Below, in pieces: positions 37,229 through 37,622 of a stretch of DNA of 64,000 nucleotides. The notes beneath the pieces were generated by a model that made no database searches, was not told the origin of the DNA, and saw only the letters and a list, made by a program, of their open reading frames with translations. The stretch covers positions 1,857,419 through 1,921,418 of the forward strand of contig NZ_CP061315.1 of NCBI RefSeq assembly GCF_018688315.1, written 5' to 3'. This stretch comes from Polynucleobacter sp. AP-Kolm-20A-A1 (GTDB lineage: Bacteria; Pseudomonadota; Gammaproteobacteria; Burkholderiales; Burkholderiaceae). Both the position numbers and the translations under genes were made by a program. Numbering within the stretch: the stretch's first letter is position 1; every line of letters begins with the position of its first letter.

Positions 37229-37285
37229 ACATTTACCTTAATGAATTTGCACCCGAAATGAATCCATTTCGAGATATATCGATGA

Positions 37286-37307
37286 AATAAAAAGCCGCCA
37301 AGCGGCA
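37286..37307 (-). terminator. Intrinsic terminator between the glycine riboswitch minigene and the 63-codon gene
   Basis: On the minus strand GCCGC (37302-37306) pairs with GCGGC (37294-37298) across a 3-base loop, followed by TTTTTATTT. It follows the minigene stop by 18 bases. Confidence 0.85.
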
Positions 37308-37324
37308 CGATAAAAGTCGACGAA

Positions 37325-37345
37325 CTATTCGATCTGAATTTGCAT
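37325..37345 (-). CDS. Six-codon leader minigene (MQIQIE)
   Basis: ATG at 37343-37345 encodes MQIQIE and then stops at 37325-37327. A strong purine-rich ribosome site, GGGAGGG, lies 5 bases before the ATG, immediately after the riboswitch hairpin. A terminator lies downstream. It may be a regulatory leader peptide or the remnant start of a lost gene. Confidence 0.55.
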   Translation of the reverse strand: MQIQIE

Positions 37346-37398
37346 AGAAACCCTCCCAAAGCAGCCCATCACCGTCATAGCAAGCTATGTCGACGGAT

Positions 37399-37589
37399 GC
37401 CGCTCCCCCTGTCCTTGATACCTGAGAGATTCACACTAAGCCTGGCTTAGTGCTTGCTCCTTCGGTGCACCATAAAGATGGTGACTCTCCAGACGGCTAT
37501 TTAGGATAAGCAGTACCTTCCTGGTGGATACCTGAGCGTTCATGGGAGTTTGCGCCTTCGGTGGAGGGAATTCCCTCACTCTCCTGCTT
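37399..37589 (-). promoter_or_regulatory. Tandem glycine riboswitch (two aptamers)
   Basis: On the minus strand aptamer 1 spans 37508-37589, with AAGCAG (37584-37589) paired to CTGCTT (37508-37513) and the cores CACCGAAGG, GCGCAAA and CTCAGGTAT. Aptamer 2 spans 37399-37497: GCCG (37494-37497) pairs with CGGC (37399-37402), with GTCTGGAGAG, CACCGAAGGAGCAA and CTCTCAGGTATCAAGGACAG. The two-domain layout matches the gcvT-type glycine riboswitch. Normally it controls glycine cleavage or transport genes; none is present here. Downstream lies a hairpin (CCGTC...GACGG with CATAGC...GCTATG) before the minigene ribosome site. Confidence 0.93.
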
Positions 37590-37595
37590 ATGAAA

Positions 37596-37622
37596 ATTAT
37601 AACCTGCTGACACTTTTATCAA
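37596..37622 (-). promoter_or_regulatory. Sigma70-like promoter for the glycine riboswitch
   Basis: On the minus strand there is TTGATA (37617-37622), a 15-base spacer and TATAAT (37596-37601), with the predicted start at or beside the first aptamer helix. The spacer is slightly short, but the -10 is perfect. Confidence 0.6.

Follow-up and report, generated by a model that had tools for sequence, protein, structure and literature searches.

A tandem glycine riboswitch, a minigene of six codons and a conserved gene for a small protein, here called orf63, follow one another in Polynucleobacter, and the explanation that we think best fits the compared sequences, and consider reasonably probable, is that glycine sets the translation of the minigene and that the ribosome on the minigene unmasks orf63. 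At 37229..37622 of the window (the whole 64,000-nucleotide stretch of Polynucleobacter sp. AP-Kolm-20A-A1 DNA that was analysed), all elements of this riboswitch-orf63 unit lie on the minus strand (Table 1). Promoter, tandem riboswitch, six-codon minigene, orf63 and terminator may thus form a self-contained, glycine-responsive unit, in which (i) the riboswitch would act on the minigene ribosome site, the nearest one downstream of it; (ii) the minigene codons and the bases after its stop would serve as the masking strand for the ribosome site and start codon of orf63; (iii) a ribosome that starts on the minigene and translates to its stop would open the orf63 site; and (iv) glycine would thereby set the amount of a protein of 60-odd residues.

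Table 1. Parts of the glycine riboswitch-orf63 unit (positions in the window)
Feature	Position	Strand	Basis or remark
Promoter-like pair TTGATA + TATAAT	37622-37617 + 37601-37596	-	read from sequence; 15-base spacer
Glycine riboswitch aptamer 1	37596-37501	-	RF00504, 50.9 bits, E 1.2e-9
Glycine riboswitch aptamer 2	37502-37399	-	RF00504, 59.5 bits
Minigene Shine-Dalgarno (SD) GGGAGGG	37357-37351	-	read from sequence; purine-rich
Six-codon minigene MQIQIE	37345-37325 (ATG 37345; stop TAG 37327-37325)	-	
Post-stop segment of minigene	37309..37324	-	partly paired with orf63 SD and start in a single-sequence fold
Terminator-like GC hairpin, then TTTTTATTT (U-tract)	37306-37294	-	terminator scan
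orf63 SD AAGG	37239-37236	-	read from sequence
orf63, small protein	37228-37037	-	63 codons; motif EAPYHPGYED, C-terminal helices
Terminator ending the unit	37022-37005	-	terminator scan

Glycine riboswitches linked to orf63, a gene under selection

Both glycine aptamers named by a sequence-only reading of this DNA are covariance matches to RF00504, and with 59.5 and 50.9 bits in a whole-genome search they score above the gathering threshold of 32; no other glycine aptamer turned up in that search of the 1.92 Mb genome. A cmscan of the window listed aptamer 2 and not aptamer 1, probably because the two matches overlap by 2 bases and the best overlapping match is kept. The other parts named by that reading were all located as well: the minigene with its ribosome site, the hairpin with its U-tract, the 63-codon open reading frame (ORF) with its own SD, and the terminator. 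The terminator scan is weak on its own, as it finds these two terminator-like sites where shuffles already give 0.8 +/- 1.0. A promoter consensus scan, which excludes 15-base spacers such as that of the TTGATA/TATAAT pair, found no promoter (shuffles 1.8 +/- 1.3). The -10 element is nevertheless conserved: of the 41 scorable orf63 riboswitch loci (L045 and L048, at contig ends, were left out), 35 have TATA[AC]T ahead of aptamer 1, against 0.4% of random stretches. A second riboswitch lies elsewhere in the window, at 2649-2537 on the minus strand, and matches the SAH aptamer (RF01057, 47.4 bits).

To place the unit in its genus we used a sample of 121 genomes from the larger genus Polynucleobacter, of which 77 contain RF00504 matches and 49 an orf63 homologue. 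Judged from the orf63 side, with all 49 loci fetched, a glycine riboswitch stands directly upstream of orf63 on the same strand in 43 (L001, L041-L080, L082 and L107). Both aptamers were matched in 39 of these 43, including two loci at contig ends (G071 and G085), and a single one in the other four (G044, G059, G087 and G121). Among the RF00504 matches listed, orf63 was the next gene in 40 of 40 riboswitch loci chosen by the size of their aptamer match, seven of which were already known to have orf63. A riboswitch directly before orf63 in 43 genomes, 42 of them with the minigene, is more than chance, and the riboswitch, which had been taken for an orphan, is in view of this linkage not one. 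The usual target of a glycine riboswitch, a gcv or transport gene, which is common and not defining, does not follow here, where orf63 stands downstream instead. That no gcv gene lies at the locus was noted correctly: the unit is flanked upstream, on the same strand, by a TauE-family gene and downstream by a convergent MipA-family gene, and the genome gave no GcvT match.

The genes around the unit vary between clades (tauE lies within 1 kb upstream in 12 of 42 orf63 loci) and the -10 box stays, which argues that the unit is self-contained. Polynucleobacter necessarius, an endosymbiont with a reduced genome, retains the riboswitch, with aptamers weakened to 38.8 and 35.5 bits, a minigene encoding MQIPIQ and orf63 (L107). 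Six divergent orf63 copies (L101-L106) have neither riboswitch nor minigene; their fetched stretches gave no Rfam glycine match at E 0.01, and each has its own strong SD, GGAGGAT. Glycine control is thus not essential to the orf63 protein. We also observed that a TATGCTACATTGA or TGTGCTACATTGA stretch lies upstream of each of these six copies, and that in them FLG replaces the FC that carries C52. In one further locus (L080, G121) orf63 has only 55 codons, the tauE and MipA matches are partial and one aptamer was matched; the unit there looks to be decaying.

The other glycine riboswitches of the genus, read at 46 loci among the matches listed (L037 and L090 were left out), stand before gcvT, DadA-like and ketopantoate-reductase-like genes; these gene names are our reading of the sequences, and some of the loci are overlapping stretches of one place. 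None of the 46 gave an orf63 match. The ketopantoate-reductase-like gene was seen behind glycine aptamers at L081, L083-L085, L088, L093, L027 and L036, and the DadA-like FAD dehydrogenase at L011-L025, L028, L031, L032, L039, L086 and L087. It is possible that both are unreported glycine riboswitch targets.

The orf63 sequence is itself conserved. Across the 89 pairs whose pS lies from 0.05 to 0.6, dN/dS has a median of 0.079, and the median pS of these pairs is 0.52, which is near saturation (L080, L082 and L107 were left out). By this comparison orf63 is a real gene under strong purifying selection, and the coding constraint that had been proposed as a check on the 63-codon frame is present. 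Seventeen residues are invariant across 16 diverse copies, among them EAxxHPGYED near the N-terminus. We found no orf63 match in Pfam and NCBIfam at E 0.001; the best E-value against PDB sequences was 0.55, and against PHROGs 0.033, to a family without an assigned function. A profile search returned 285 homologues. Among the 120 of these that were listed, none has a Pfam domain, the function labels read 'hypothetical protein' with the exception of one 'ribosomal protein L31', and the organism names are either Polynucleobacter or no narrower than Pseudomonadota. Searching one genome each of 16 other genera gave no homologue at E 0.1. The predicted structure consists of helices at residues 26-37 and 39-59 and a low-confidence N-terminal part (mean pLDDT 79.7, pTM 0.43), with a mean pLDDT of 79 over residues 21-30 and of 96-97 over residues 31-50. 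As nine of 43 inner branches of the orf63 gene tree are starred, we do not use the tree to say how the minigene arose.

These data bear directly on the proposal that a gcv or transporter gene was lost from this place, leaving a live sensor whose ORFs are by-products. A genome that gives no GcvT match is what such a loss might leave behind; orf63 nevertheless stands beside the riboswitch in 43 genomes and evolves at the dN/dS given above, and the -10 element and minigene are conserved with it. We reject a lost-gene relic on the riboswitch-orf63 linkage and the selection on orf63, and find it scarcely credible as an account of the locus.

A minigene of conserved place and length

An SD-like word followed by a minigene lies between aptamer 2 and orf63 in 42 of the 43 loci. 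The minigene has six codons in 38 of the 42, five in three (L067, L075 and L076) and sixteen in one (L060, G023); it starts with ATG in 41 and with GTG in one, and all three stops, TAA, TAG and TGA, are used. The distance from its stop to the orf63 start is 63-108 bases (39 in L060). In shuffled leaders the six-codon result has a probability of 0.044, a figure to be read with the relatedness of the loci, which are not independent trials. The script asked for an SD-like word and then an ATG or GTG 8-14 bases on, so that SD and start are partly built into this result, whereas length and stop are not. In an alignment of 40 leaders (L060 and L082 were left out, as was L043 from all distinct counts, its leader being identical to that of L042), three of 171 columns are invariant: the T and the G of the minigene start and the T of its stop, the last of which follows from the fixed length of the minigene.

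The encoded peptide behaves differently from this frame. Over 113 close pairs the pN/pS of the minigene is 0.52, and sequence comparison indicates that the peptide is hardly constrained, whereas place and length are conserved. The minigene therefore looks like a translational device and not like a product. The suggestion of small products that form a novel response to glycine is consequently supported in part: for orf63, as a conserved target, but not for the minigene peptide.

A scan of the other glycine riboswitch groups of the genus, which covered 34 distinct leaders with a similar script that accepted ATG only, found no minigene of five to seven codons; some gcvT starts in this control were placed inside the gene, and L095 had no stretch to scan. 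Two of these leaders (L011 and L012) have frames of 15-16 codons, and in a third (L016) the frame runs into the gene. Within the orf63 loci, one lineage (L082, G133) has no minigene, and there the orf63 start occupies the place of the minigene, following the conserved aptamer 2 strand AGGGGGAGCGGC. This locus is a natural control for the idea of a relay.

A short leader ORF before a gene that may respond to an amino acid recalls a classical ribosome attenuator, whose codons would sense charged tRNA. However, beyond the start there is no codon that all minigenes share, the MTRYSG minigenes are the only ones with a glycine codon, and the aptamers already sense the ligand. We reject the tRNA attenuator on the lack of shared codons, and regard it as very improbable. 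Glutamate appears only at codon 6 of some clade 1 minigenes.

The presumed action of the riboswitch on the minigene is the weak link of this scheme. The P1 strand GGGGGAGCGGC of aptamer 2 can pair forward towards the minigene SD, but folding from this strand to the minigene showed no clear effect on access to the SD, which was unpaired at 0.57 with the P1 strand free and at 0.41 when the strand was blocked; blocking left the wider start region of the minigene more open in 17 of 41. In the window (37357-37346) and its relatives the bases between the SD and the start of the minigene are rich in pyrimidines and could pair with that SD; in a fold of all rows, where the SD forms a hairpin of four pairs, one pair is A-U in 19 and G-C in 19 of the 40 rows. 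Judged by eye, these bases also match the GGGGGAG strand in aptamer 2 as a complement.

Glycine riboswitches are usually ON switches. This usual logic favours the same direction here, and glycine would presumably switch the unit on. ON cases are mentioned in PMC2258182.

What the protein might do is hinted at by the distribution of the glycine cleavage system. Strong GcvT matches (E < 1e-70) occur in none of the 49 genomes with orf63 (G116 has only a 165-bit match) and in 21 of the 72 without it, an exclusion that is confounded by clade and only a hint. Together with the result for the genome studied here, it makes it plausible that these bacteria have a different answer to excess glycine, and the orf63 protein may adjust glycine/serine metabolism where the glycine cleavage system is missing. 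Serine hydroxymethyltransferase and PII-type regulators are candidate partners for it.

Possible pairing of the minigene region with the orf63 ribosome site

The arm directly behind the minigene stop is complementary to the bases just 5' of the orf63 SD, with which it can form a helix of ten pairs. In the MAFFT alignment 69.9% of its pairs are standard, against 20-41% when the arm is slid, and 21 changes affect both sides, against 13.0 +/- 2.9 in shuffles, 2 of 500 of which reach as high. Three further measures did not stand out from the 500 shuffles, with 234 for pairs changed on both sides, 375 for pair types and 55 for the covariation score. When two helices between minigene codons and the SD and start of orf63 are included, 66.4% is paired, against 28-38% when slid, and 42 both-side changes against 29.7 +/- 4.8 (2 of 500), with the same three measures again not outstanding (114, 481 and 61 of 500).

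RNAalifold on all 40 rows (alignment A2) returned no such helix and only the four-pair hairpin around the minigene SD. As there was no genus-wide helix in that fold, the clades had to be folded separately. We drew the clades by eye and left out clade 1d, which has two loci, from the folds, L082 and L060 from the clade tests, and L060 also from the duplex tests. In all six separate consensus folds, minigene or post-stop bases pair with the region around the orf63 start. Clades 1a and 1b pair the two starts, of minigene and orf63, with each other, and the fold of clade 1a includes the post-stop helix. Over the whole consensus folds 87-96% of cells are paired, and the numbers of pairs changed on both sides are 6, 11, 4, 3, 1 and 0. 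When the orf63-side block was swapped among seven clades, an equal or better sum was reached by 29 of the 5040 arrangements, a count that includes the real one, and for 35 of the 40 leaders the own duplex was better than its dinucleotide shuffles are on average. The helix of post-stop bases is strong in the clade 2 leader L042. The copy in the window pairs poorly in this scheme: its own duplex is at -8.6 kcal/mol, its dinucleotide-shuffled 3' blocks have a mean of -9.2 and swaps are no worse. In a single-sequence fold of the window, orf63 SD and start do pair with the post-stop stretch, in another register. Taken together, the alignments and clade folds seem to make the ribosome site of orf63 the minigene's conserved partner.

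A relay is the simplest scheme built on the conserved features. On finishing six codons, a ribosome would cover the masking strand whatever peptide it had made, and this would account for a fixed length and stop beside freely changing residues. We infer that the minigene is translated and that its ribosome relieves the masking. A more specific form of this reading, which we put forward tentatively, takes the length-locked, sequence-free minigene for a mechanical relay that holds a ribosome at a fixed distance, with a masking helix re-evolved clade by clade, and whose output is a small regulator protein, induced by glycine, in bacteria that lack the glycine cleavage system.

The same minigene could act as a brake or spacer that holds Rho off the leader or competes for ribosomes, without opening the orf63 site. 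A conserved ORF with a hardly conserved peptide fits any role that needs translation alone, and a Rho component is reported for the Mbox leader of Mycobacterium tuberculosis (PMC12810186); yet neither the pairing in six clade folds nor the outcome of the clade swap would be expected, and we think such a role unlikely.

In the window, the hairpin with its U-tract falls inside the masking region, and here a transcriptional reading has its place, in which glycine or the minigene ribosome decides whether polymerase passes the hairpin before orf63. The window hairpin is followed by TTTTTATTT, and two other loci (L057 and L059) have clean U-tracts too. However, a terminator-like hairpin lies between minigene and orf63 in just nine of 41 distinct loci, with a clean U-tract in three of the nine (the third being L001), while a terminator-like site follows orf63 in 34 of the 41. 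Moreover, the window hairpin begins 18 bases past the minigene stop, beyond the reach that the footprint of a terminating ribosome usually has. We judge control at this hairpin to be quite unlikely, and the idea that the minigene couples translation to the downstream terminator is not supported, as that terminator is not conserved. A leader-peptide transcription attenuator was rejected on the same count and on the absence of conserved regulatory codons.

The preferred reading, unmasking of orf63 by the minigene ribosome, matters beyond this locus. In the usual description, a riboswitch acts either on the start of its gene or on a terminator. If the sensor acts instead on a minigene conserved in its place and six-codon length, the position of the ribosome would itself be the signal. 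The 42 natural minigene variants, with one lineage that lacks the minigene, are a ready mutational series, and the conserved orf63 protein family is a candidate for a glycine response in freshwater bacteria.

Comparison with known systems

Known glycine riboswitches are found with gcv and transport genes. The riboswitch described here resembles other tandem RF00504 riboswitches in having two aptamers above the gathering score, and differs from their known contexts in the minigene and small-protein gene downstream. A second aptamer is reported in 88% of leaders with one glycine aptamer (PMC2258182). Our search found no open-access paper with both glycine riboswitch and Polynucleobacter, nor one with both glycine cleavage system and Polynucleobacter; subscription papers were mostly outside its range. 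PMC8632094 used the P. necessarius genome, and the term 'glycine riboswitch' is absent from its main text. An arrangement of riboswitch, minigene and small protein is not described in the accessible parts of PMC12810186, PMC11109978 and PMC8632094. The combination of glycine riboswitch, six-codon minigene and small protein looks new, and its elements have separate parallels.

That an amino-acid riboswitch sets a small protein is known from the cyanobacterial gifB glutamine riboswitch, which controls IF17, an inhibitor of glutamine synthetase (PMC7760959). The unit described here would be like it in this respect. We know of no minigene in the gifB (IF17) system.

The pe20 Mbox of M. tuberculosis directly controls a conserved small ORF, rv1805A, which has a homologue outside the switch context (PMC12810186), much as six orf63 copies stand without a switch. 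The Mbox differs from the present unit in its ligand, Mg2+, in Rho-dependent termination and in a small ORF that is highly conserved.

A mini-ORF over structure is also known in mgtQ of the Salmonella mgtC-mgtB leader, an ORF of eight residues behind a strong SD, which overlaps a stem whose opening frees the ribosome site of the next gene, mgtB (PMC8092293). The minigene would resemble mgtQ if it masks the ribosome site of the next gene, for which the clade comparisons speak, but not the window's own copy or the fold of all rows. mgtQ requires Asp/Glu codons, unlike the minigene, in which such codons are not conserved, and the accessible part of PMC8092293 mentions no riboswitch for it.

A relay behind a riboswitch has been described for the ppe2 B12 riboswitch of M. 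tuberculosis, which controls the upstream ORF (uORF) uPPE2, whose translation is needed for that of the next gene and which its authors term an indispensable relay (PMC11260477). Stop and start overlap there in AUGA, the main ORF has no SD and is reached by termination-reinitiation (PMC11260477). Like uPPE2, the minigene is a uORF with an SD directly behind the aptamer and before the main gene (42 of 43 loci). Unlike uPPE2, it has only six codons and lies 63-108 bases from the next start (39 in L060) with no stop-start overlap, and orf63 in the window has its own SD.
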